From the NCBI GenBank assembly GCA_028292565.1, contig JAQGMD010000099.1:1-11049 (forward strand): DNA of 11,049 nucleotides, read 5' to 3'. The stretch comes from Burkholderia sp. GTDB taxonomy: Bacteria > Pseudomonadota > Gammaproteobacteria > Burkholderiales > Burkholderiaceae. Both the position numbers and the translations under genes were made by a program. Positions 1 through 11,049 of this stretch are shown in pieces; position 1 is the stretch's first letter, and each line of letters starts with the position of its first letter. The notes beneath the pieces were generated by a model. That model was given only the letters and a program-made list of their open reading frames with translations. It was not told the origin of the DNA and searched no databases.

Positions 1-465
1 ATTGCGCAATTCATGCGCCAGCGTGGCCAGGAATTCGTCCTTGCGTTTATCGACTTCGCGCAACTCGCGTTCTACATGACTCAGGCGCAGCAGCGCCTTG
101 GCATTCGCCACCAGTTCTTCGGGTTCGATCGGCTCGAACAGGTAGTTATCGGCGCCACCATCGAGGGCACGTATCTTGTCGGCGATTCCGATATAGGACG
201 CCGATGTCTGCAAGACCAGGACCATTTTGGTCAACGGGTCTTCCTTGAGGAGCCGGCACACCTCGAACCCATTGATATCGGGAAGTTTGACGTCAAGCAG
301 CACCAGGTCCGGGGAGTCTTCGTTCGCGCGCCTCAATGCTTCGTCGCCGCTGGCCGCTTCAATGACCGCGAAGCCGGCACGCGTCAGGATACGCGTTTTG
401 GCGTACCGCGCGGCGTCGGTGTCGTCAACGTTCAGGATTAACGAATCTTGCAGGTTCGGCTTCAT
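1..465 (-). CDS. Receiver domain-histidine kinase hybrid (partial, C-terminal part beyond window)
   Basis: The gene starts at ATG 465-463 and stays open for 155 codons to the window edge. It has an AGGGA ribosome site a few bases upstream and begins 8 nt after the stop of the preceding hybrid kinase, so it ends the visible operon. Residues about 7-128 form a receiver domain with acidic pair D14/D15, phosphoacceptor D58 (VLLDVKLPD) and T87/S88. A short helical linker follows (about 129-142). A HisKA H-box then starts, FLATLAHELRN, with phosphoacceptor His at residue 151; the kinase ATPase domain must lie outside the window. At the usual receiver Lys-Pro the sequence reads LFEPIEP, so Glu111 replaces the conserved lysine. 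As far as I recall, this exchange recurs in N-terminal receivers of hybrid kinases. Inferred role: acceptor or next relay step for the upstream RsbT-like/kinase fusion, its receiver taking phosphate and its kinase passing the signal on. It could be longer, with PAS or further receiver domains. Confidence 0.9.
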   Translation of the reverse strand, partial: MKPNLQDSLILNVDDTDAARYAKTRILTRAGFAVIEAASGDEALRRANEDSPDLVLLDVKLPDINGFEVCRLLKEDPLTKMVLVLQTSASYIGIADKIRALDGGADNYLFEPIEPEELVANAKALLRLSHVERELREVDKRKDEFLATLAHELRN

Positions 466-473
466 TTTCCCTG

Positions 474-2279
474 TCACGTATTTTCACTTTCCGCGCGTCC
501 CTCAACCGGGGATGACGCATCGGCGGGAGGCGGGTTGATCAAAGACCGCAGCATCGACACCAGGTCGTCGCGCAACAGCGGTTTGACGAAATACGCATCC
601 GCCCCGAGCGCAAAACCCTTGCGCTTGTCATCCACGTTGGTCGCAACGATGATCGGCACATCCCTGCGCCCGTCATTGTTTTTGGTTTCCATTAACCAGC
701 GCCAGGTATCTTCGCCGTTCAAAACGACGTCGAGCACCACCGCCGCAGGACGCAGCGAGGTCCAGGAGTGCTCCGCTTCCCAGATGCTGCGGGCATAAAC
801 CAGCCGGAATTCCGTACCCCGCAGGAATTTTTCATAGAGCAGCCTGACATTCTGGTCATCTTCGACAACCAGCACCGGCAAACGCTGGTCGTCGACTGCG
901 ACGGCGCCGCTATCGTCTACGGTCGCCGGGTCGGCCGAATCATGCTCGACCGGGATGACTGCCGAGAAGGTAGAGCCATGCCCAGGCGTACTCTCGAGCT
1001 CGACCCGTCCGCCGAGCAGCGCGGCCAGTTTGCGGCATAGCGGCAATCCGAGGCCGGTGCCTTTAACACGCTGCTGCAGGCGATTTTCGATCTGGCTGAA
1101 TTCTTCAAAGATGAGCTGCTGGTGTTCCGGCGCAATGCCCAGGCCGGTATCGGCGACCGAAAAGCGGATCGCCGCTTCTTCCGGCACCGGTGTGGCGGTG
1201 ATCCTCACTTCACCGGATTCAGTGAACTTCAGTGCGTTCGAAATGAAGTTGCGCAGGATCTGCGACAATTTTGCTTCATCGGTGTACATGCCGATGACAT
1301 CCGCCGGTTCATCGAAGACGAGCCTGACCGAATCGCTGACCAGCAGCGGACGAAGCATGCCGCGGAGCGCGCTGAACATATCGGCGACTTCGAACTTGAC
1401 GGATCGCACGTCAATTTTGCCCGCCTCGATCTTCGCCAGATCGAGCAGGTCGTTCACCAGTTCGGCCAGCGATTCCGTGCCTTTGAGTATGAATGTGACC
1501 TGCTTTTCCTGCTCTTCGGAAAGTTCGCCGTCGACCCGGTCGAGCAAGAGTTTCGACAAAGCGCGTATCGAACTGAGCGGCGTACGGAATTCATGGCTCA
1601 TGTTCGAAAGGAAGCGCGATTTCATCTCGTCGGCGCGGCGCAGGTGGTCTGCTTTTTCATCGAGTTCCGCATACAGCGCGACCACGCCGCGATTGGTATC
1701 TTCCAGTTCGCGGGTCAGCCGCAGCAGTTCTTCCTGCCGTGCCTTCAGTTCCGCCAGGGTACGCAGCAGTTCCTTGTTTTGTTCCTGCACCTCGGAGAGG
1801 GTGATGTCGGCGGGAAGCGTTGCAAGCCGCGCCCCCATGTCGCCGACGATTCTTGGCGTCAGCACCGGCGCAGTCGCGGGAATGAGCTTTTTCAGGACCA
1901 CCGTCGTGCCCTGGCCCTTGACGGTACTGATGTCGCATTGGTCCATCAACCGACGCGCGCCGATAATGCCGAGGCCCATCCCGGTCTGGGAGTGATACCG
2001 GCCGGAGAGAATGAGGTCGAGATTCGCTATACCCGGACCTTCGTCTTCAATCCGGATGATCAGAACCTGCGGCGTAATTTCGCCCTCGACTGAAAACTCG
2101 ATCCTGCCACGCGACGCATAGTTGTAAACATTGCGCGCAAGCTCCGATACCGCGGTGCCGATACGGGCCTGGTCCTGAACGCCGAAGCCGCAGAGCGATG
2201 CAATCTGCCGCGCGCGCTGGCGGGATGCGACGACGTCGAGCTCCGCATTGATCGCTACTGTCAGGATGCGCAGGCTCAT
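474..2279 (-). CDS. RsbT-like ATPase / histidine kinase / receiver fusion protein
   Basis: This 601-residue protein has four parts. Residues 1-132 are an RsbT-type GHKL domain with N-box SELARN (E46, N50), G1 box EDEGPGI (D79) and a glycine loop TGMGLG near 99-104. Residues about 158-220 are a predicted coiled coil rich in Leu/Glu. Residues 221-445 are a full histidine kinase core: H-box FLSNMSHEFRTP with H229, N-box N344/N348, DTGLG at D377, FEEF near 391 and GTGLGL near 407. Residues about 468-580 are a C-terminal receiver with E473/D474/D475, phosphoacceptor D517, T547 and K566. All catalytic residues expected of a working hybrid kinase are present. There is no membrane segment, so it is cytoplasmic. 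Its ATG overlaps the previous stop as ATGA, which implies coupled translation. The RsbT-like head suggests direct docking on the stressosome core, making this the likely output; that is inference. Confidence 0.93.
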   Translation of the reverse strand: MSLRILTVAINAELDVVASRQRARQIASLCGFGVQDQARIGTAVSELARNVYNYASRGRIEFSVEGEITPQVLIIRIEDEGPGIANLDLILSGRYHSQTGMGLGIIGARRLMDQCDISTVKGQGTTVVLKKLIPATAPVLTPRIVGDMGARLATLPADITLSEVQEQNKELLRTLAELKARQEELLRLTRELEDTNRGVVALYAELDEKADHLRRADEMKSRFLSNMSHEFRTPLSSIRALSKLLLDRVDGELSEEQEKQVTFILKGTESLAELVNDLLDLAKIEAGKIDVRSVKFEVADMFSALRGMLRPLLVSDSVRLVFDEPADVIGMYTDEAKLSQILRNFISNALKFTESGEVRITATPVPEEAAIRFSVADTGLGIAPEHQQLIFEEFSQIENRLQQRVKGTGLGLPLCRKLAALLGGRVELESTPGHGSTFSAVIPVEHDSADPATVDDSGAVAVDDQRLPVLVVEDDQNVRLLYEKFLRGTEFRLVYARSIWEAEHSWTSLRPAAVVLDVVLNGEDTWRWLMETKNNDGRRDVPIIVATNVDDKRKGFALGADAYFVKPLLRDDLVSMLRSLINPPPADASSPVEGRAESENT

Positions 2280-3322
2280 TGATGCCCACCCGGAACATCA
2301 AGAGCCCGGTTTTCCCGGACAACCAATACCGTGACGTCGTCGCTCTTGCGGGCGAAGTCGCGGTATAAAACAGCGGCAATCAAGCTCGGATGCCGCATCT
2401 CGAGGCCAGGATAGTCTTCCAGGCCCCAGCGGGTCACGATTCCGTCGGAGCACATGACGATCATCGAGTCGACGGACCACGGAACAACGAATTCCTGCAC
2501 CTTGCGCAGGTTGCTGCCGACGATGCCGTTATGCGAAACCATTTGACGACGGTTGTTGATTCCAAAAACAAAGGCAGCGATATTGCCGACGCCGGCGAAG
2601 CATAGTTCACCTGCAATGGTATCCAGGCGTGCAACCGCAACAGCGGCGCCTCGCGTTGCACGCAACGCGCCATGGGCCTCGTGTAATGCCGCGCCGGGTG
2701 GCAATTCCTGATGCCGGTCGAGTACCGCAGCGGCAGCCTGGGACGCCCTCGCGGCATCGGGGCCGTGACCGAGTCCGTCAGCCACCATCAGGTGTAATGT
2801 TCTGGCATCGCCGCTAGCCGCCCAGGCGTCGCCGCACACCTCTTCTCCGGGAAAAGGCAGGCAGACCGCACCGATTTGCCACGCTGCGGCGGCGCCAACG
2901 GGCCCGGCCCACACGGTCATGCACAAGACAGTTCCCTTGCCGGGAGCGGTATGCACATCGAACTCGTCGGCAAGGCGCCGCATTGCGCCAAGACCAACGC
3001 CATAAGTGCCGGCCGATGACACGCCATCCTGCATGTTCAACGCAAGATTGGCCATGCCGGGACCGGAGTCGATCGCCACTATTTCGATACCGGCGGTGTC
3101 ACCGGATCGAACCGGCCTTATAAGAATTTCTCCGGGAGCGGCATGTTTGACAATATTGGTTGCCGCTTCGGTAATGACAAGCGAGACCCGGCCTGCCCTG
3201 GTCTCGTCAAAGCCGAGCCGCCTGGCGATTTCGTTGCCGGCGCGCCGTGCGGCCGCAACCGCGGTGGATTCCCCGATATGGAATGCCGCCTGCGGCCTTA
3301 CTGCACTTAGAATGGTTTCCAT
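2276..3322 (-). CDS. RsbT-like ATPase / PP2C (SpoIIE-type) phosphatase fusion, RsbX-like
   Basis: The protein has 348 residues. Residues about 12-138 are an RsbT/RsbW-type ATPase fold with N-box TEAATN (E52, N56), G1 box IDSGPGM (D95), a glycine loop (GTYGVGLG, 105-112) and the APGKGT motif. Residues about 145-336 are a PP2C/SpoIIE-type phosphatase with metal-binding aspartates in GDAW (D165), ADGLGHG (D182), SDG (D293) and SDD (D328/D329). The phosphatase part is about 190 residues, close to stand-alone RsbX, and lacks the extra N-terminal region of RsbU. By family knowledge RsbX removes phosphate from RsbS and RsbR and resets the stressosome, so that role is inferred here. The start (ATG 3322) lies 16 nt inside the end of the RsbT gene and has only a weak ribosome site, suggesting translational coupling. 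The N-terminal ATPase could act as a second switch kinase or only as a docking unit. Confidence 0.93.
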   Translation of the reverse strand: METILSAVRPQAAFHIGESTAVAAARRAGNEIARRLGFDETRAGRVSLVITEAATNIVKHAAPGEILIRPVRSGDTAGIEIVAIDSGPGMANLALNMQDGVSSAGTYGVGLGAMRRLADEFDVHTAPGKGTVLCMTVWAGPVGAAAAWQIGAVCLPFPGEEVCGDAWAASGDARTLHLMVADGLGHGPDAARASQAAAAVLDRHQELPPGAALHEAHGALRATRGAAVAVARLDTIAGELCFAGVGNIAAFVFGINNRRQMVSHNGIVGSNLRKVQEFVVPWSVDSMIVMCSDGIVTRWGLEDYPGLEMRHPSLIAAVLYRDFARKSDDVTVLVVRENRALDVPGGHQ

Positions 3323-3723
3323 TTGGTGATCTTTACCACGGTGCCTTTTCCTGGCGCTGTTTGAATGTCGAACTCATCGGAAAGACGCTTGGCGCCGCTT
3401 AAACCCAGCCCCAATCCGCCGCCGGTCGTATAGCCATCGGTCAATGCGAGTGCGATATCAGCAATTCCCGGGCCATGGTCAATAAAACTCAGGCGGACTC
3501 CGCGGCGGCTGCCATTCGCTACCCTGGCAAGATGTGACTCGCCACCGCCGCCGTACCTGAGCGTATTACGCGCAAGTTCGCTGGCCGCGGTCACCATCTT
3601 GGTCTGGTCCACCAGGCTGAAGCCGACCGCAACCAGCGACTCGCGCACTGCCTGGCGCATGCGAACCACGTCTTCGTCCGATCGCAGCTGCATCACCATC
3701 AGGTCCGCATCATTAGTACTCAA
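3307..3723 (-). CDS. rsbT: Stressosome switch kinase RsbT (serine/threonine kinase, GHKL fold)
   Basis: This is a 138-residue single-domain protein of the usual RsbT length. The Bergerat-fold signs are clear: N-box TAASELARN (E49, N53), G1 box FIDHGPGI (D82), glycine-rich lid GGGLGLGLSG (101-110) and the terminal TAPGKGT. RsbT is known to phosphorylate RsbS and RsbR and then to leave the stressosome and activate a partner. In Bacillus the partner is RsbU; no RsbU is visible here, so the partner must differ. The start is taken as TTG 3723-3721 because GAAAGG sits 8 nt upstream; an ATG at residue 9 is possible but lacks a ribosome site. The gene lies 49 nt after rsbS and overlaps the RsbX-like fusion by 16 nt. 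Confidence 0.94.
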   Translation of the reverse strand: MSTNDADLMVMQLRSDEDVVRMRQAVRESLVAVGFSLVDQTKMVTAASELARNTLRYGGGGESHLARVANGSRRGVRLSFIDHGPGIADIALALTDGYTTGGGLGLGLSGAKRLSDEFDIQTAPGKGTVVKITKWKPF

Positions 3724-3731
3724 TTCGTCGG

Positions 3732-3737
3732 CCTTTC
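3732..3737 (-). promoter_or_regulatory. Ribosome binding site supporting a TTG start of rsbT
   Basis: On the minus strand GAAAGG is followed by 8 nt and then TTG. It lies in the 49-nt rsbS-rsbT gap. It favours the TTG at 3723 over the in-frame ATG eight codons later, which has no comparable purine-rich stretch. Confidence 0.5.
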
Positions 3738-3772
3738 ACAGCAGAAGGAGGAGCCTCTGAAGGCATACGCCG

Positions 3773-4132
3773 TTATACGGCACTTGACTGCTGAAGCAGC
3801 CTGATGCCCTTCTCGACGTTGAGCGCGGTTCTGACGCCTGCCAGCGACAGGCCCAACTCGACCAGGGTAATCGCGACCGCCGGTTGCATGCCGACCAGCA
3901 CGGTTCGCGCGTCAAGAATGCGGGCCATCGCCGCCGTATCGCTGATCATCCGGCCTATGAACGAATCGACGATATCGAGCGCCGATATGTCGATCAGGAC
4001 ACCTTTTGCCCGGTCTTTCACAATGCGCGCCGTCAGGTCATCCTGAAGCGTCATTGCCAGGCGGTCGTGCATGTCGACCTGTATCGTCACCAACAGCAGG
4101 TCGCCCATTTTCAGTATCGGTATACGGTCCAT
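3773..4132 (-). CDS. rsbS: Stressosome scaffold protein RsbS (STAS domain)
   Basis: This 119-residue protein is a single STAS domain, the typical RsbS layout. The core motif ISALDIVDSFIGR places the conserved phosphorylatable serine at residue 57, matching the RsbT target serine known in RsbS proteins. The segment GMQPAVAITLVELG (81-94) is the conserved second half of STAS stressosome proteins. RsbS forms the stressosome core with RsbR and holds RsbT until phosphorylated; this is family knowledge. The ATG at 4132 has AAGG 5 nt upstream and follows the rsbR stop by 7 nt, so the two core subunits are co-translated from one message. There is no membrane segment or extension. Confidence 0.94.
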   Translation of the reverse strand: MDRIPILKMGDLLLVTIQVDMHDRLAMTLQDDLTARIVKDRAKGVLIDISALDIVDSFIGRMISDTAAMARILDARTVLVGMQPAVAITLVELGLSLAGVRTALNVEKGIRLLQQSSAV

Positions 4133-4139
4133 CAGTACC

Positions 4140-5006
4140 TTACCTTTCGGTTTGCGAATACGTGATCGTCGATCCGGTACGTTTCAATGCGACAAGGAAC
4201 GCGTCAGCCAGGGTCGCCTTCGTGATCACGTCTTCCAGATTGACGCCGAGATGCACGATGGTTTGCGCGATCTGTGGACGAATGCCGCTGATGATGCAAT
4301 CCGCGCCCATCAATCGGGCGGCGGCAACGGTCTTGAGAAGATGCTGTGCGACCAGCGTGTCCACTGTAGGCACGCCGGTGATATCGATGATGGCGATCGA
4401 CGCGCCGGTGTCGATGATCTTCTGGAGCAGGTTTTCCATCACGACCTGCGTGCGCGAGCTGTCCAACGTGCCGATCAGCGGCACCGCGAGGACGTTCTGC
4501 CACAACTGGACCACCGGCGTGGACAACTCGAGCAATTCCTGTTGCTGACGCATGATGACCTGCTCGCGGCCTTTCTGGTATTCGGCAACGGTAAACAAGC
4601 CGAGCTGGTCAAACAAAGTGCCTGCTTGCGCGGTCTCTTCCACCAACGCCATCGGATCTCTTTCGAGTTCTGCACGCAGAAGCGCGAACACAGGCTCTTT
4701 CAGTGCAAAGACGAAAGTCGCTGTCTCGGTCGGGGAGAAGCCCTGACGCGCCCGGTACTGGGACATTTCGCTGAGCAACTGCCTTACCTCACTCCATGAG
4801 GACGCGTCGATATCGGAAGTCTGCCCTTCCGTGACCGCCTTGACCAGGACCGGAATGAAGCGGGCCGCCTGGTGGCTGGCTTCGTTTTCGGCGACTTTGT
4901 CACGGCGCACGGCGCGCGAAAACATGTTTTCCAGCCATCCGTTCAGCAAATGATCCTGATGTTTCGTGAGAACCCTGGCCAGATGGCCGGTCGATTGTTT
5001 GCTCAT
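4140..5006 (-). CDS. rsbR: Stressosome sensor protein RsbR (RsbRD-like N-terminal domain plus STAS)
   Basis: The protein has 288 residues. Residues about 5-145 form an all-helical N-terminal sensory domain resembling the RsbRD N-terminal family (for example HLLNGWLENM near 19-28). Residues about 146-165 are a linker helix rich in Gln/Glu. Residues about 166-275 are the STAS core with PLIGTLDSSR, IDITGVPTVDT and SGIRPQIAQTI. Aligned from memory to Bacillus RsbRA, whose RsbT targets are T171 and T205, the equivalents are S183 and T217, so both remain phosphorylatable. The start ATG 5006 has GGAG 5 nt upstream. As first gene of the operon it follows the putative FNR-type promoter. The input is unknown: related Vibrio RsbR proteins bind heme and sense oxygen, but the histidines here (H8, H16, H19, H45) all lie in the first third of the domain, so heme binding cannot be claimed. 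Confidence 0.93.
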   Translation of the reverse strand: MSKQSTGHLARVLTKHQDHLLNGWLENMFSRAVRRDKVAENEASHQAARFIPVLVKAVTEGQTSDIDASSWSEVRQLLSEMSQYRARQGFSPTETATFVFALKEPVFALLRAELERDPMALVEETAQAGTLFDQLGLFTVAEYQKGREQVIMRQQQELLELSTPVVQLWQNVLAVPLIGTLDSSRTQVVMENLLQKIIDTGASIAIIDITGVPTVDTLVAQHLLKTVAAARLMGADCIISGIRPQIAQTIVHLGVNLEDVITKATLADAFLVALKRTGSTITYSQTER

Positions 5007-5402: not shown

Positions 5403-6857
5403 TCAAGCGTAATTGATCACAAGATGTTTGATATCCGACATCTCCTCCATCGCATACCGTGTCCCTTCCCTTCCGAACCCCGAGTCTTTCCACCCGCCGA
5501 ACGGCATGCTGTCGATACGATAAATCGGCACATCGTTGACCATCAACCCGCCGACATCCCAGTCCTCGATCGCCTGAAATGCCCGCCGCAGGTCGTTGGT
5601 AAACATCCCACCCTGCAAGCCATATCGGGAATCGCCGGCGCGCTGGATGGCTTCCTCGAATGTCTCGTAACTGTTGACCGTCAGGACAGGCCCGAACACC
5701 TCCTCGTCCTCGATCTTCATGCCCTTCGCCGTGTTGGTAAGCACGGTCGGCTGAACTACCGCACGATTGCGTGAACCGCCGGTCAGGACAGTGGCCCCGC
5801 CAGCGACCGCTTCATCAACCCAGCTTTGAATGCGGACCGCCGATGCTTCATCAATCACCGGGCCCACATCGATTCCTTCCTGCATCGGATCGCCGACGCG
5901 ACAGGCGCGAACGCGTTCAACCAGTTTGCGGGTAAATTCCTCCGCAACCGATTCATGCACCAGGATCCGTTGTACGCCGATGCAGTACTGCCCGCCATAG
6001 ACGACGCCACCACGAACACAGCGCGCGGCCGCAAGGTCGAGGTCCGCATCTTCGCAGACGACGACTGCGCCGTTACCGCCAAGCTCAAGCGCCACCTTTT
6101 TGCGGCCCGCAATGTCCTTGATGTGCCAGCCGACTTTGGCGCTGCCAGTGAAACTGACCATGGCGAATCGCTCATCGCGCACCATTGCCTCGGCAAGCGG
6201 AACCGGACAATGAATGACCTGTAGTGCGCCCTCCGGCAGTCCGGCTTCGGTCATGATCTGCTGCAGCAGCAGCGATGTGAGCGGCGTCTGCGGCGCCGGT
6301 TTCAGCACCACGCTGTTGCCGACCGCGATCGCCGGCGCCACCTTGTGCAATACCAGGTTCAGCGGAAAATTGAACGGCGCAATCGCCAGGATAGGACCGA
6401 TCGGGAAACGCCTTGCAATGCCTATCCTGCGCCGCATGCGGTTCAAAGCGTCTGGGTCGAGCTGCGACAGTTCAACCGGGCGCCCCTGGCTGTCAGTGGT
6501 CTGGTACTCGAAAACCCCGGCATCCATATCGAGAGGAACTTCCTCACCACCAAAGCGCCGCGCTTCCGCCGCGGAATTGGTCAGATTGAAGATCGCGCGC
6601 GATACCTCTCCGCGGGCGTCGTACACCGGCTTCCCTGCCTCTGCGGCGATGGTCCTGACGAATTCGTCGCGGCGGGCACGCAGCAGCTCTGCGGTCCGCT
6701 GCAGGATGTCGGCCCGCACGAATCGCGGCAGTTTGCGCACTACCTGAAATGCCTGCTGCGAACGTACGATGGCATTCTCGACGTCCTTCGCAGTGGAAAC
6801 CGGCATTTCGCCTACTACGCTGCCGTCGAACGGGGAAAGGATTTTGTCAGTGACCAT
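5403..6857 (-). CDS. NAD(P)-dependent aldehyde dehydrogenase
   Basis: This 484-residue protein is full length for the soluble ALDH superfamily. It oxidises an aldehyde to its acid with NAD(P). Visible residues: oxyanion Asn163 (APFNFPLN), cofactor Lys186 (LKPAP), the FTGS motif at 236-239, general base Glu258 (LELGGN), catalytic Cys292 (GQYCIGVQR) and Glu386 (EEVFGP). The GQYCIGVQR context and the polar stretch at about 118-143 resemble the lactaldehyde/phosphonoacetaldehyde-type branch more than the betaine-aldehyde type, but the substrate cannot be assigned. The ATG at 6857 has AGGA 7 nt upstream. It follows the Rid-like deaminase gene by 84 nt and is probably the last gene of the liv operon. 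Given that neighbour, a semialdehyde from ring cleavage of an aminated compound is one possible substrate (inference). Confidence 0.92.
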   Translation of the reverse strand: MVTDKILSPFDGSVVGEMPVSTAKDVENAIVRSQQAFQVVRKLPRFVRADILQRTAELLRARRDEFVRTIAAEAGKPVYDARGEVSRAIFNLTNSAAEARRFGGEEVPLDMDAGVFEYQTTDSQGRPVELSQLDPDALNRMRRRIGIARRFPIGPILAIAPFNFPLNLVLHKVAPAIAVGNSVVLKPAPQTPLTSLLLQQIMTEAGLPEGALQVIHCPVPLAEAMVRDERFAMVSFTGSAKVGWHIKDIAGRKKVALELGGNGAVVVCEDADLDLAAARCVRGGVVYGGQYCIGVQRILVHESVAEEFTRKLVERVRACRVGDPMQEGIDVGPVIDEASAVRIQSWVDEAVAGGATVLTGGSRNRAVVQPTVLTNTAKGMKIEDEEVFGPVLTVNSYETFEEAIQRAGDSRYGLQGGMFTNDLRRAFQAIEDWDVGGLMVNDVPIYRIDSMPFGGWKDSGFGREGTRYAMEEMSDIKHLVINYA

Positions 6858-6898
6858 GATTCATTCCTGAAGATCTATTGATGTTTCAGTAAATGGAG

Positions 6899-6930
6899 GT
6901 GAGGGACTGAGCTTTCATTCTGTCACTCAC
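6899..6930 (-). other. Imperfect hairpin between the deaminase-like and aldehyde dehydrogenase genes
   Basis: On the minus strand GTGAGTGAC (6930-6922) can pair with GTCCCTCAC (6907-6899): eight pairs with one T-C mismatch and a 14-nt loop. No T run follows, so a simple intrinsic terminator is unlikely. It could stabilise or separate the two halves of the transcript, or be incidental. Confidence 0.3.
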
Positions 6931-6941
6931 TTGTTAAAAGC

Positions 6942-7700
6942 TCAGCAGACTACAAGCACTCGTTCCACGTGCACGCCGCGGCAATCCATTTCATACTCGA
7001 GATCGACCACTGGCGGACGATTCAGGTGCCAGGTCAAGCCGCCCTTCATCGCGCCGCGCCGGCCGATTTCGTCGGCGATGAAAGGATGAATGTCGTGCAC
7101 CGTATAGAGCTGGGCGGCAGTCGTGTCGGACCATTTGAATCCGAGCGCACGCATCCGGTTCTCCATCTCCGCGAGCACAAAGCGCGCCTTGTTGCGCAAT
7201 CCTTCCGTCGACACGTCGCCGAAGCTGATGAGGTGATCCTTGTAATTGCCTTTACCTTTCGGCGCTTCACCGCTGCCGGCGACCACGAACGAAGGCGCGG
7301 CGGAAGCATCCGCAACCGTGTACGAGAATGCATAGAAGCTCGGCACCTCCGGCGGATCGATTGCCGGGCATACGTTACTGCGGGCTATCGGGTTAGTCTT
7401 GCCATCGAAGATGCCCCATTGCGTGAGCGTTCCGACGTAGGCCCTGTTGAAGGCCTCGAAGCCGGCCTCGTCGAATGGCGCCGGCGAACGCAATTCGCAT
7501 GCGCAGAATGCGGTAAGCGGCCGCCCTGCCGCCCGCAGGGTTTGCTCGATCAGCCGGAATCCCTCCGCGAGCGGAACGGGCTTGAGGAAGCGGACACGTT
7601 CGATCCGGTATCCGGGCTCGGCGGCGACGCCTGCGGAGTATTGGAATACGCCGGGGACGAAACGATAGTTACCAGGTGCAAAGACTTGTGTGCTGGACAT
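6942..7700 (-). CDS. Rid-superfamily protein with two Rid-like halves, CnbZ-type 2-aminomuconate deaminase-like
   Basis: This 252-residue cytoplasmic protein has no signal peptide. Two halves each resemble the RidA/YjgF fold. In residues about 45-135, FEAFNRAYVGTL and PIARSNVCP (R107) echo the Rid motifs around the substrate arginine. In residues about 158-250, NKARFVLAEMENRMRALG and AQLYTVHDIHPF echo the Rid helix and following strand. Rid enzymes hydrolyse reactive enamines/imines, and the CnbZ family deaminates 2-aminomuconate and its chloro derivative in nitroaromatic breakdown; the link to CnbZ is from recall of the family's appearance and is moderate. The gene follows livF by 31 nt, has a weak GAAAG ribosome site, and precedes an aldehyde dehydrogenase, which fits a pathway that deaminates and oxidises an imported compound. 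A non-catabolic imine-clearing role is the main alternative. Confidence 0.72.
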   Translation of the reverse strand: MSSTQVFAPGNYRFVPGVFQYSAGVAAEPGYRIERVRFLKPVPLAEGFRLIEQTLRAAGRPLTAFCACELRSPAPFDEAGFEAFNRAYVGTLTQWGIFDGKTNPIARSNVCPAIDPPEVPSFYAFSYTVADASAAPSFVVAGSGEAPKGKGNYKDHLISFGDVSTEGLRNKARFVLAEMENRMRALGFKWSDTTAAQLYTVHDIHPFIADEIGRRGAMKGGLTWHLNRPPVVDLEYEMDCRGVHVERVLVVC

Positions 7701-7731
7701 GTCGAGGCTTTCGTAATCAGGTTGAGTGGGT

Positions 7732-8466
7732 CTACTGGGTCAGCGCGCCGAGATAGGCGCTGCGGATGGCGGGGTCGTGCATGAGTTCTGAACTGGGACC
7801 ACTGCGGACTATGCGTCCCATATCCATCACATAAGCGGTGGTCGACAATTCGAGCGCGGTGATGACGTCCTGTTCGACTACCATGATCGACAGGCCTTCG
7901 CGATTGAGCAACTGCAGGGCATCAACCAGTTGTTCAACCAGCAGCGGTGACAAGCCAAGCGACAATTCGTCGATCATCAACAGGCGAGGCGCGCTCATCA
8001 TTCCGCGTCCGATCGCGCACATCTGCTGTTCGCCGCCGGACATCGTGCCGGCGGCCTGGTTACGTCGTTCGGACAATTTCGGGAACGTTGCATAGACACG
8101 ATCAAGGTCGCGCTGGATGGCCGAGCGTGGTTCCTTGCGCGCATAGGCGCCCATTAACAGGTTGTCCTCGACACTCATGGCGCTGAACAGCCGCCGGCCT
8201 TCGGGCACATGGGCTATGCCATGCGCAAGGATCTGCGCGGGCCACCGTCCGGAGATGTCCTCGCCTTCCCATGCGATGCTTCCCGCAGTTGGCGCAATCA
8301 ATCCGGACAGTGCTCGCATCAGCGTCGATTTGCCGGCGCCATTGGAGCCGACCAGCGCGGTGATCTCGCCTCGGCGCAGCGTCAGATCGATGCCCCACAG
8401 CACCTGGATCTCGCCATAACCGGCCTCAAGCCCGCTCAATTTGAGCAATGGAATGGAGTTGTTCAT
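7732..8466 (-). CDS. livF: Branched-chain amino acid-type ABC transporter ATP-binding protein LivF
   Basis: This 244-residue cytoplasmic ATPase is one of the two nucleotide-binding subunits of the Liv transporter. Visible motifs: Walker A GSNGAGKST (40-48), VPEGRR at the Q-loop position (87-92) as usual for LivF, signature MSGGEQQ (142-148), Walker B LLMIDE (162-167), and VVEQD with Gln199 where other ABC proteins carry the H-loop His, also a common LivF trait. The start is ATG 8466, not an upstream in-frame codon, because AGGAAGG lies 2 nt before it and overlaps the livG stop, leaving a 7-nt gap. The upstream extension would be 33 arginine/serine-rich residues unlike any LivF. It is coupled to livG. 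Confidence 0.94.
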   Translation of the reverse strand: MNNSIPLLKLSGLEAGYGEIQVLWGIDLTLRRGEITALVGSNGAGKSTLMRALSGLIAPTAGSIAWEGEDISGRWPAQILAHGIAHVPEGRRLFSAMSVEDNLLMGAYARKEPRSAIQRDLDRVYATFPKLSERRNQAAGTMSGGEQQMCAIGRGMMSAPRLLMIDELSLGLSPLLVEQLVDALQLLNREGLSIMVVEQDVITALELSTTAYVMDMGRIVRSGPSSELMHDPAIRSAYLGALTQ

Positions 8467-8473
8467 GGCCTTC

Positions 8474-9223
8474 CTAACCGGTTGCGGTGTTGAGCTGCGC
8501 GTATTTCTTCCCGAGATACGCTTCGACGACACGCCGGTCATTAACCACTTCGGCAGGCGTGCCATCCGCTATCAGCGCACCGTTTTGAAGAACCACGATG
8601 CGGCTGCATACGGTCAGCACCACTTTCATCAGGTGCTCAATCAGCACGATAGTGATGCCGCGCTGCGCGAGTTGGCGTATCAGCACCATCGCATGTTCAA
8701 CCTCCATGGAATTCAGGCCGGCGTTGACCTCGTCGAGGAACAGCAGCTTCGGGTTCATCGCCACGGCCTTGGCCAGTTCCAACCGTTTGCGCATTGCCAG
8801 CGTCAGCATGTGCGCCGGCTTGTCCGCATGCTGGCTAAGCCCGACAAAATCCAGCTGGCTCGCTGCGAACTCGCGCGCTTGCGCCGGACGCATCCCGGCT
8901 TGCGAGAACAGCGCGGCCGCGGCAACGTTGTCGAGCGTCGACAATTCGGGGAATGGTTGCACGACCTGGAAAGTACGCGCCAGGCCGGCGCGTGCTGTCT
9001 GGTACGGCTGCAGCCGGGTGATATCCCGGCCTTCGAACAGCACACGCCCGGCAGAAGCGCGATGGACCCCAGTCACAACGTTCACGAGGGTCGTCTTGCC
9101 CGCGCCGTTCGGGCCGATCAGGCCGAGGATTTCACCTTGGCCGACCGATAAGCTGACGTCCTGCAGCGCCTGCAACCCGCCGAAACGGCGCGACAGGCCT
9201 TCGAGCTTCAGCACTTCAGCCAC
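8474..9223 (-). CDS. livG: Branched-chain amino acid-type ABC transporter ATP-binding protein LivG
   Basis: This 249-residue protein is the second nucleotide-binding subunit, pairing with LivF under LivH/LivM. Motifs: Walker A GPNGAGKTT (37-45), Q-loop RTFQ (Q86), Walker B LLFLDE (160-165) and H-loop His197 (IEHLMK). The signature is degenerate: LTLAMRKRLELAKA (140-153) replaces an LSGGQ-type sequence, a variant that I believe recurs in some LivG proteins. The start is GTG 9223, backed by a strong GGAGGA site, and lies 8 nt inside the end of livM. The usual LivG insert after Walker A, with its RAGLARTFQ segment, is present. Confidence 0.94.
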   Translation of the reverse strand: MAEVLKLEGLSRRFGGLQALQDVSLSVGQGEILGLIGPNGAGKTTLVNVVTGVHRASAGRVLFEGRDITRLQPYQTARAGLARTFQVVQPFPELSTLDNVAAAALFSQAGMRPAQAREFAASQLDFVGLSQHADKPAHMLTLAMRKRLELAKAVAMNPKLLFLDEVNAGLNSMEVEHAMVLIRQLAQRGITIVLIEHLMKVVLTVCSRIVVLQNGALIADGTPAEVVNDRRVVEAYLGKKYAQLNTATG

Positions 9224-10160
9224 GGCGTCCTCCGATGAATTTAAAGCGCTTCGAAATGGACATCATGCCATTCGGCAGGAACAACAGTAGCAGCACAACC
9301 AGCAAGCCGAGGACACCCGAGTGGATCTGCAGGTAGTTACGCCACACCAATTCCTCGATGCCGAGGAAGGCGAATGCACCCAGTACGGCGCCGGCAGGGG
9401 AACCAAGTCCGCCCAGCAGGGCCATCACGATCGGCTTTACAGCGAATAGCACGTCGAATACATCGGGCGGTTCGATGTAATGCACCCATGCTGCGTAGAT
9501 CACGCCTGCCATTGCGACGAACACGCCGGAGAAGGCAAACGCGACGCTCTTGTACATGGTGGCGTTGACGCCGATCATGTCGGCGGCCGATTCATTCTGC
9601 TTGATGCATACCAGGCCGAAACCGAGCTTCGATTGCTGGATCAGGCGCACGACTATGAAGGTCAGCAGCAGCAATGCCCACATGGTCCAGAAGAAGAACG
9701 ACGCCTCGCCCATGACACTATTGGAGCCGGAGACCACCAGCGGAATGTTGAGTCCCATGCCGCCACCGGTCAGGTCGGTTGCCGAGTTGGTGCTTTCTCG
9801 CAGCACTTCGGCAACGGCCAGGCTGGCAATCGCAAAATAGTGGCCGCGCAGCCGCAGCAGCACGATGCCCAATACCAGCGCGCAAACGAAGGCGACCATA
9901 CCTGCGGTGCCCACGGCGGCAAGCAGGGGCCAGCCTTTATTGATGAGTACGCCGCCGCAATAGGCGCCGAACCCGAAGAACGCCGCTGTGCCAAATGACG
10001 GATAGCCGGTGAAGCCGCCGATCACGGTCCACGACACGGACATGATTGCGTACATGCAGGCGAAGGTGCCGATGCGCAGCGCATACGAACTGTCAAATAG
10101 CGGGAGGCAGCCGAACAGGACCAGCAGAGCGATGGTGGCAAGGTAGATCGACTTTTTCAT
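9216..10160 (-). CDS. livM: Branched-chain amino acid-type ABC transporter permease LivM
   Basis: This 314-residue inner-membrane permease has about 9-10 hydrophobic segments. LivM hallmarks are LRLRGHYFAI (102-111), LTGGGMGL (130-137), a cytoplasmic coupling loop IKQNESAADMIGVN (186-199) that contacts the ATPase, and LLGGLGSPAG near 248. The start is ATG 10160, with the N-terminus MKKSIYLATI typical for a membrane protein and an ATGA overlap with the livH stop. The much longer open frame upstream runs antiparallel-free through livH in another frame, is rich in Arg/Gly, and is not part of the protein. Together with LivH it forms the membrane channel. Confidence 0.94.
   Translation of the reverse strand: MKKSIYLATIALLVLFGCLPLFDSSYALRIGTFACMYAIMSVSWTVIGGFTGYPSFGTAAFFGFGAYCGGVLINKGWPLLAAVGTAGMVAFVCALVLGIVLLRLRGHYFAIASLAVAEVLRESTNSATDLTGGGMGLNIPLVVSGSNSVMGEASFFFWTMWALLLLTFIVVRLIQQSKLGFGLVCIKQNESAADMIGVNATMYKSVAFAFSGVFVAMAGVIYAAWVHYIEPPDVFDVLFAVKPIVMALLGGLGSPAGAVLGAFAFLGIEELVWRNYLQIHSGVLGLLVVLLLLFLPNGMMSISKRFKFIGGRRG
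9228..9233 (-). promoter_or_regulatory. Strong ribosome binding site setting the GTG start of livG
   Basis: On the minus strand GGAGGA is followed by CGCC and then GTG (9223-9221). This near-perfect Shine-Dalgarno sequence inside the livM end justifies a GTG start and would give livG efficient translation. Confidence 0.65.
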
Positions 10161-11023
10161 TCGAATCCCCGCTTCCCGAGCAGTCCCTGTGGACGAACGA
10201 CGAGGAACAGGATCAACAGCGCGAATGACAGCGTGACCGCGTGTTCCGGGCCGAAAGCCAGCGAACCGAAACTTTCCACTATCCCAAGAAACAGCCCGCC
10301 CACCACGGCACCTGGCACGCTGCCAAGTCCGCCGAGCACACAAACCACGAAGGCCTTGCCCAGATATGACCCTGAGGCTATCGGCGAAATCGGAAAGATC
10401 ATTGCCAGCAGCACGCCTGCGCAGCCGGCCATGGCGGCGCCGAGGCCGAACGCGGTTGCATAAATTGACGGTACATCCACACCCATCAGGCGCGATGCGT
10501 CCCGATCCATCCTGACGGCCACGATCGCGCGTCCGATACGGGAACGGCGCAGCACGAGATAGAGCGCCAGCGTCAGCAGCAATGCGAAGATGGTCGCGAC
10601 TATCCGATCGGTCGGCACCACCAGCGGGCCCAGGGAAACCGACCCGAGCGAAGGATCGAGAACCAGGCGGCGATAATCGGCCTTGAATGCCACCAGCATG
10701 GCGTTGTTGAGCATCAGGTCGAGGCCGAAAGTCAGCGTCAGCGTGACCAGTACCGGCGCCGCGATTACACGATTGAGGATGCCGCGCTGTATCGCATAGC
10801 CCAGGCAGAAGAATGCCGGGGCGGCGATCAGCAGCGACGTCCATGGCGCTAGCCCGAGTGAGTTATAGGCGGCCCATGCCAGATATGACCCCAGCACGAT
10901 GAACGAACCGTGTATCAGGTTGATCACATTGAGCACTCCCCACACCAGGGAGAAGCCAGCCGCTATGCAGGCGTAGAGGCTGCCCAGCACGATCGCGTTG
11001 AGCAGTACTTGCAGGATGAGCAT
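10157..11023 (-). CDS. livH: Branched-chain amino acid-type ABC transporter permease LivH
   Basis: This 288-residue inner-membrane permease is of normal LivH length with about 8 hydrophobic segments. The N-terminal pattern LLNAIVLGSLYACIAAGFSL and the following INLIHGSF (34-41) are typical of LivH. The coupling-loop region VRMDRDASRLMGVD (170-183), VLGGLGSVPGA (229-239) and the C-terminal RPQGLLG confirm the family. The ATG at 11023 lies 8 nt after the stop of the preceding gene and lacks a clear ribosome site, suggesting translation coupled to it. The substrate of the transporter is set by the binding protein, which is outside the window: members of this family import branched-chain amino acids, urea, short amides or aromatic acids. 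Confidence 0.94.
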   Translation of the reverse strand: MLILQVLLNAIVLGSLYACIAAGFSLVWGVLNVINLIHGSFIVLGSYLAWAAYNSLGLAPWTSLLIAAPAFFCLGYAIQRGILNRVIAAPVLVTLTLTFGLDLMLNNAMLVAFKADYRRLVLDPSLGSVSLGPLVVPTDRIVATIFALLLTLALYLVLRRSRIGRAIVAVRMDRDASRLMGVDVPSIYATAFGLGAAMAGCAGVLLAMIFPISPIASGSYLGKAFVVCVLGGLGSVPGAVVGGLFLGIVESFGSLAFGPEHAVTLSFALLILFLVVRPQGLLGKRGFE

Positions 11024-11031
11024 AGGGCCGC

Positions 11032-11049
11032 TTATTTCACGCCAAGTTT
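11032..11049 (-). CDS. C-terminal end of the gene upstream of livH (possibly the periplasmic binding protein)
   Basis: Only the last five codons (K-L-G-V-K) and the TAA stop at 11034-11032 lie in the window. The 8-nt gap to livH and the usual gene order of such operons suggest a LivJ/LivK-type substrate-binding protein ending here, but the visible residues cannot prove it. Confidence 0.4.
   Translation of the reverse strand, partial: KLGVK

Follow-up and report, generated by a model that had tools for sequence, protein, structure and literature searches.

A stressosome operon of Burkholderia sp. in which a hybrid histidine kinase carries its own RsbT-like domain

An 11,049-nucleotide stretch of DNA from Burkholderia sp. 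(positions 1 to 11,049 of contig JAQGMD010000099.1, assembly GCA_028292565.1; hereafter the window) contains an operon in which the stressosome genes rsbR, rsbS, and rsbT (the RST core) are followed by X, the gene for an RsbX-like phosphatase fusion, and by the genes of two histidine kinases, HK1 and HK2. HK1 opens with a domain of the RsbT subfamily, the third RsbT-like ATPase of the operon. This arrangement probably represents a stressosome with HK1 as its direct effector, in the slot that RsbU occupies in Bacillus. The RsbT-like domain built into the kinase is the part that our analysis adds beyond the published wiring of such systems.

An RsbT-Like Domain Fused to HK1

HK1 (positions 474..2279; like all genes of the operon, on the minus strand) is a hybrid histidine kinase of 601 residues in which Pfam identifies HATPase_c_2, HisKA, HATPase_c, and REC domains, the last three with their catalytic residues. 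The RsbT-like domain comprises residues 1-136 (1872..2279), and its ATP motifs are intact in the window copy. It is followed by a coupling helix (residues 160-218; 1626..1802) that includes the linker motif TNRGVVALYAEL (1662-1697), by the kinase core (945..1625; HisKA 1419-1625, HATPase_c 945-1280), and by a C-terminal receiver (549..875) with Asp517 and Lys566. Residues H229, N348, D377, and G407 of the kinase core are present in all 235 listed HK1-type proteins, and the linker motif is present in 233 of them. The nearest named relatives among the matches listed include proteins from a Burkholderia sp. metagenome-assembled genome (MAG; 75%), Noviherbaspirillum (72%), and Massilia (71%).

Listeria RsbT matches the window three times, in HK1 (43%, E-value 1.8e-26), in X (37%, 1.5e-22), and in stand-alone RsbT (47%, 2.3e-18), such that HK1 has the best E-value, ahead of RsbT itself. 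A hidden Markov model (HMM) trained on stand-alone RsbT only, which replaced HMMs trained across all three ATPases, scored the N-terminal domains of HK1 at 47-127 bits (n = 24) and those of X at 57-95 bits (n = 29). Forty-six weak domains, mostly kinase HATPases together with the degenerate domains of loci L028 and L032, scored at most 27.6 bits (L032), and Listeria RsbW scored 6.8 bits. In a tree of 47 rows, from which near-duplicate Janthinobacterium loci, the degenerate domain of L024, and the weak domains of L028 and L032 were omitted, the HK1 domains group with RsbT, Listeria included (support 100/99), apart from the X domains and RsbW. Within this group, ten HK1 domains (99/87) and 17 RsbT sequences (97/87) form subgroups, and the HK1 domain from Phaeobacter falls outside the group of ten as a long row. 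The HMM scores and the tree rule out that the N-terminal domain of HK1 is of the RsbW type or is a plain kinase HATPase. One HK1-type protein, P0214 of Pararobbsia, is labeled RsbT in its source record.

A structure model of the window HK1 (predicted local distance difference test, pLDDT, 82.9) has GHKL-ATPase-like secondary structure in the N-terminal domain and one continuous predicted helix (residues 160-246) that encloses the coupling helix and runs into HisKA. The model of P0121, a homolog with a degenerate N-terminal domain, has the same layout (helix 155-241). Foldseek with the HK1 model and VIA-align with the P0121 model list kinase and receiver folds only, and thus do not address the fold of the N-terminal domain.

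The Stressosome Core

By sequence, the RST core is a genuine stressosome set, comprising an RsbR N-terminal domain with STAS, the RsbS phospho-Ser, the RsbT N-box and G1 box, and an RsbX PP2C domain. Six minus-strand genes fill positions 5006 to 1 in the order rsbR, rsbS, rsbT, X, HK1, and the start of HK2. RsbR (4140..5006; 288 residues) combines RsbRD_N (Pfam, 3.2e-27) with STAS and has no globin; RsbS (3773..4132; 119 residues) is a STAS protein; and RsbT (3307..3723; 138 residues) is a HATPase_c protein with SELARN and DHGPG intact. X (2276..3322; 348 residues; HATPase_c_2 at 7.9e-19 and SpoIIE at 7.1e-12) is an RsbT-like ATPase (2915-3265) fused to an RsbX-type PP2C (2315-2806), the best match of the latter being Moorella 3zt9 (1.3e-13), followed by RsbX 3w40 (1.3e-6). 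Gaps of 7 and 49 bases separate rsbR/rsbS and rsbS/rsbT, respectively, and the remaining neighbors overlap (rsbT/X by 16 bases, X/HK1 and HK1/HK2 by 4 bases each). The open reading frames (ORFs) and Pfam matches thus confirm the packed same-strand cluster of RST core, RsbX-like phosphatase fusion, and two kinases described in the initial annotation of the window. No sigma70-like promoter was found upstream of rsbR, where 0.4 would be expected.

In chain 9o4r_a, Ala replaces the Ser with which Ser57 of RsbS aligns, and in chain 9o3o_A, Ala replaces the Thr with which Ser183 of RsbR aligns. Thr217 of RsbR aligns with the second of the sites that we take to be phospho-acceptors. Residues were counted over 98 loci, excluding L001-L015, L019, L033, and the 4.7 kb loci L034-L053. 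RsbR has Ser or Thr at the first site in 97 loci (one gap) and at the second in all 98; the RsbS site is Ser in 93, Thr in 2, Tyr in 2, and Gln in 1. The ATP-site residues E, N, and D of stand-alone RsbT (N-box, G1) are kept in 98 of 98 loci, and the RsbX Asp residues of X in 97 or 98.

Conservation of the Operon Among Relatives

Among 294 genomes of one family, 101 contain HK1 at 1e-80, and 80 of these 101 were examined, 60 as loci with wide flanks and 20 as loci of 4.7 kb. Of the 60 wide-flank loci, 59 have the full order R-S-T-X-HK1-HK2, and the 60th is interrupted by a contig end; T-X-HK1-HK2 is visible in all 20 of the shorter ones. Such recurrence makes the cluster more than a chance arrangement, and the comparison of gene order that the initial annotation had proposed bears out its conservation. 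HK1 has no receiver of its own in 42 of the 80 loci (all among the 60), and HK2 opens with REC in 80 of 80.

The complete order was also identified in 15 Janthinobacterium loci and one Massilia locus and, among farther relatives, in Deinococcus and Caballeronia. In Paraburkholderia and Sphingomonas, the genes run R-S-T-X-HK1 and no HK2 was detected; a cyanobacterial MAG shares R-S-T-X-HK1 and carries a different kinase upstream of rsbR; and in Embleya a receiver-PP2C protein is located after the kinase. In Xanthomonas, Variovorax, and a Ramlibacter MAG, an HK1 without the RsbT-like domain is followed by HK2. In one Janthinobacterium locus (L015, 10001-11753), HK1 is split over two frames, through either a frame change or an assembly error.

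It is highly improbable that HK1 and HK2 are mere neighbors of the stressosome with no functional link. The lack of detectable binding between the Vibrio RsbT and D1 proteins, considered below, is what such a reading would predict, but the conserved order, the gene overlaps, the RsbT-like domain within HK1 itself, and the recurrence of R-S-T-X-kinase in Deinococcus, the cyanobacterial MAG, and Embleya all argue against it.

In a phylum-wide sample of Pseudomonadota, RsbS was detected at 1e-12 in 26 of 398 genomes. Ten of these have the RsbT-like domain on a kinase (one of them a HisKA_2 kinase), eight have helix and kinase without the domain, two have a kinase with RsbU_N, and six are other or unclear (L157, L159, L160, L162, L163, and L164), L163 being a weak 20-bit match at a contig end. 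The outputs of L157 (PP2C) and L159 (GGDEF-EAL) were named by motif reading. All eight loci whose HK1 has no RsbT-like domain contain the strict linker pattern. In L156, rsbT is followed by a second stand-alone RsbT-like gene (6158-6631), a single-domain RsbX-like gene, a GGDEF-like gene (also named by motif), and an RsbU_N kinase. RsbS relatives were also identified at 1e-15 on 97 plasmid records, 58 of them from Phaeobacter.

Absence of a Sigma Cassette and of RsbU_N

Queries with Listeria RsbU, RsbV, and SigB returned no match in the window or the 60 related loci (0/61), and Listeria RsbW matched in 4 of the 61, the window not among them. The statement of the initial annotation that SigB, RsbW, RsbV, and RsbU are missing beside the RST genes accordingly holds for the window. 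The RsbU/RsbW/sigma cassette that it had named as a refuting find was not found, with RsbU, RsbV, and SigB unmatched throughout and RsbW matched in the four loci; the sequence past the left edge of the window is judged from relatives. A SigB cascade, with RsbU-V-W-SigB beside RST, was rejected on this basis. No RsbU_N was identified in HK1 among Pfam matches at E 0.01 or in any of eight related genomes, where a B. subtilis control was positive, and an assignment of HK1 as an RsbU_N effector was likewise rejected.

Dock or Enzyme

In all 120 nearest listed proteins, among them that of the window, the HK1 domain retains its ATP residues. Position N50 is Thr in all 50 Caballeronia-type proteins (P0121-P0170), the kinase core of which is intact, and N is kept at this position in 26 of 65 further listed HK1-type proteins. 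Among the HK1 domains of 77 loci, the ATP-binding N50 is lost in 33, yet R20 and E46 are kept in all 77, and stand-alone RsbT is intact in all 98 loci counted. These two patterns suggest a docking role for the fused domain. Profile alignment (1til, 1.2e-9) pairs R20 with Arg 20 of SpoIIAB, a residue that we take to contact the STAS partner. On a tree of the kinase core, three changes explain the degenerate state, one of them via the long-branched L028, whose placement is unsure, and one change explains the absence of the domain (L162 was coded intact though the domain is absent there, and the PP2C locus L032 was excluded). We read these changes as losses.

These patterns bear on two other readings of the fused domain. 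In one, the domain would be an active Ser/Thr kinase on RsbR and RsbS, such that the phosphorelay would feed the stressosome in the reverse direction. The ATP motifs, intact in all 120 nearest listed proteins including that of the window, favor this, but the loss of N50 in 33 of 77 loci and in all 50 Caballeronia-type proteins, whose kinase core is intact, makes it improbable. In the other, free RsbT from the core would bind the N-terminal domain and helix of HK1 much as it binds RsbU, and the domain would be a partner of RsbT and not a dock for STAS proteins. This reading is consistent with the presence of RsbU_N kinases in stressosome operons (L156, L161), with the eight of 26 genomes that have helix and kinase without the domain, and with the finding that RsbT orders the helix linker of RsbU (PMC12143880). 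However, HK1 has no RsbU_N, and R20 and E46 are kept even where ATP binding appears lost, with R20 aligned to the presumably STAS-facing residue of SpoIIAB. We consider such receipt of released RsbT by HK1 somewhat unlikely. Docking of HK1 on the STAS proteins by its fused domain is the form that we prefer, although it falls short of an even chance.

Exchange of the Module Between Outputs in Actinobacteria

Residues 1-260 of the PP2C effector of a Streptomyces R-S-T-X operon, used as a query, identified 351 proteins, of which the best 120 listed comprise 102 PP2C proteins and 18 HisKA kinases. Since proteins with the Streptomyces module include both, phosphatase and kinase outputs share one input module, as judged from these matches. 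An HMM of the HK1 domain, built from the N-terminal 142 residues of P0001-P0235 (including a few that lack the domain), gave medians of 43.7 bits for the PP2C proteins and 42.1 bits for the kinases (lowest PP2C, -1.2; shuffled sequences up to 3.5). With the RsbT-only HMM, the medians were only 24.6 and 24.8 bits (shuffled sequences up to 0.5). In the two loci examined, the operon slot is occupied by a PP2C in Streptomyces (L032) and by a kinase in Embleya (L028). Because a kindred module heads PP2C or kinase outputs in actinobacteria, the slot of RsbU is the most likely position for HK1.

Several observations weigh against HK1 as the direct effector of the stressosome. The actinobacterial domains, at about 25 bits by the RsbT-only HMM, score no better than kinase HATPases, and support for all 11 HK1 domains as a single clade is only 69/29. 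The model of the window HK1 has a predicted template modeling score (pTM) of 0.48. Of 91 HK1 ORFs from the loci, only 45 contain the strict linker pattern and 47 a looser version, and the motif was therefore dropped as an invariant. In eight of the 26 Pseudomonadota stressosome genomes the RsbT-like domain is evidently dispensable, since HK1 there has none. Finally, binding of VvRsbT to VvD1, a different kinase, was not detected in V. vulnificus (PMC9237108).

HK2 and the Proposed Signal Path

The window contains the first 159 residues of HK2 (1..477), with a receiver (103-438) that has the phospho-Asp and a Glu at the switch-Lys position, and a HisKA-like box, read by eye, that begins after it at the window edge; the full layout of HK2 is known from relatives. 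Asp and Thr of this first receiver are conserved across all 80 loci L034-L113, and the switch Lys is replaced in every one, by E (49) or A (31). In eight far relatives, the position is H (5), E (2), or D (1) and the Thr is variable; in the kinase upstream of rsbR in the cyanobacterial MAG, it is K. The initial annotation had proposed to look for a response regulator past the left edge; in 60 relatives, the 4 kb that follow HK2 (complete in 55 of them) contain no receiver-like ORF.

In the mechanism that we propose, the fused domain would hold HK1 on the STAS proteins, and phosphorylation of RsbR and RsbS would free or re-orient it. The coupling helix and the kinase activity of HK1 would then change, phosphate would pass from HK1 to the receiver that opens HK2, and X would reset the switch. 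We tentatively extend this to a possible general role of the fused RsbT-like domain as an adaptor for stressosome docking, i.e., a copy of the switch kinase, repeatedly turned into a pseudo-enzyme, that tethers HisKA kinase, HisKA_2 kinase, or PP2C outputs to the STAS core. The effector itself would be released under stress, and the signal would exit via an atypical receiver without the switch Lys.

Comparison With Known Systems

That a stressosome feeds a phosphorelay is already in print: section 10 of Heinz 2022 (PMC9237108) lists RSTX clusters followed by kinase/receiver phosphorelays. The proposal of the initial annotation to this effect is partly supported, by the missing RsbU, RsbV, and SigB, the missing RsbU_N, the conserved gene order, and the module swap, but it is not new. 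The comparison with earlier work also covered PMC4976288, PMC8363230, PMC6848086, PMC12189002, PMC10950880, PMC8115616, PMC12826045, and PMC9237128. An RsbT-like domain in the kinase is not mentioned in the text covered, though Fig. 3 of PMC9237108 may draw one, and is not named in the titles and abstract openings of the literature searched, mostly outside subscription journals.

The V. vulnificus operon RSTX-D1-D2 likewise has RSTX followed by a two-component module and no sigma cassette (PMC9237108, PMC10014275). Mutants tie RSTX to this module (PMC10014275), with dRSTX and dD1 strains similar in phenotype. It differs in its globin RsbR and single-domain RsbX, and D1/D2 are thought to act on cyclic di-GMP, whereas the window has an RsbRD_N RsbR, an ATPase-fused X, and the RsbT-like domain in the kinase. 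The D. radiodurans MP1 operon (DR_RS15570-15595) shares R-S-T-X-HK1-HK2 and the RsbT-like domain in HK1 but has an HK2 without a C-terminal receiver. Judged by position, its HK1 and HK2 are probably DR_B0028/29, linked earlier to an antisigma operon (PMC6501615). This operon (L023) is megaplasmid-borne, with an IS4-type transposase gene some 2.6 kb away, and higher levels after vacuum exposure are listed for DR_B0028, which is probably its HK1.

RsbRST-U-V-W-SigB of Listeria and B. subtilis shares the R, S, T core and an RsbX-type phosphatase, but its RsbU, RsbV, RsbW, and SigB are replaced by kinases in the window operon. Effectors with RsbU_N (Moorella MtG, RsbU_N histidine kinases) are also linked to stressosomes and combine an N-terminal input domain with a helix linker, the input being RsbU_N where HK1 has the RsbT-like domain. 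RsbU_N is reported in some proteins downstream of stressosomes and as undetected in the majority (PMC9237108). RsfSR (M. smegmatis) and TciKR (Vogesella) are also two-component systems joined to partner-switching proteins, but have other input domains. They were set aside as experimental kin, as the portions of their reports available describe no RST core.

Neighboring Genes

Upstream of rsbR, positions 5403-11049 of the window contain a catabolic gene set with no evident link to the stressosome operon, including an aldehyde dehydrogenase, liv-type transporter genes, and a relative of CnbZ-type 2-amino-5-chloromuconate deaminase (407 bits, cut-off 220). One ORF (9216-10844) overlaps the next permease gene; its listed start is probably too early, because only the part 9216-10169 matches UrtC/LivM-type permeases.

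Implications

Gram-negative stressosomes often occur without SigB, and RsbU_N went undetected in most of the proteins downstream of them (PMC9237108). A kinase with a built-in RsbT-like domain is a concrete, testable candidate for the physical link between core and kinase. Such a link would explain how a Ser/Thr switch drives His-Asp signaling with exchangeable outputs.

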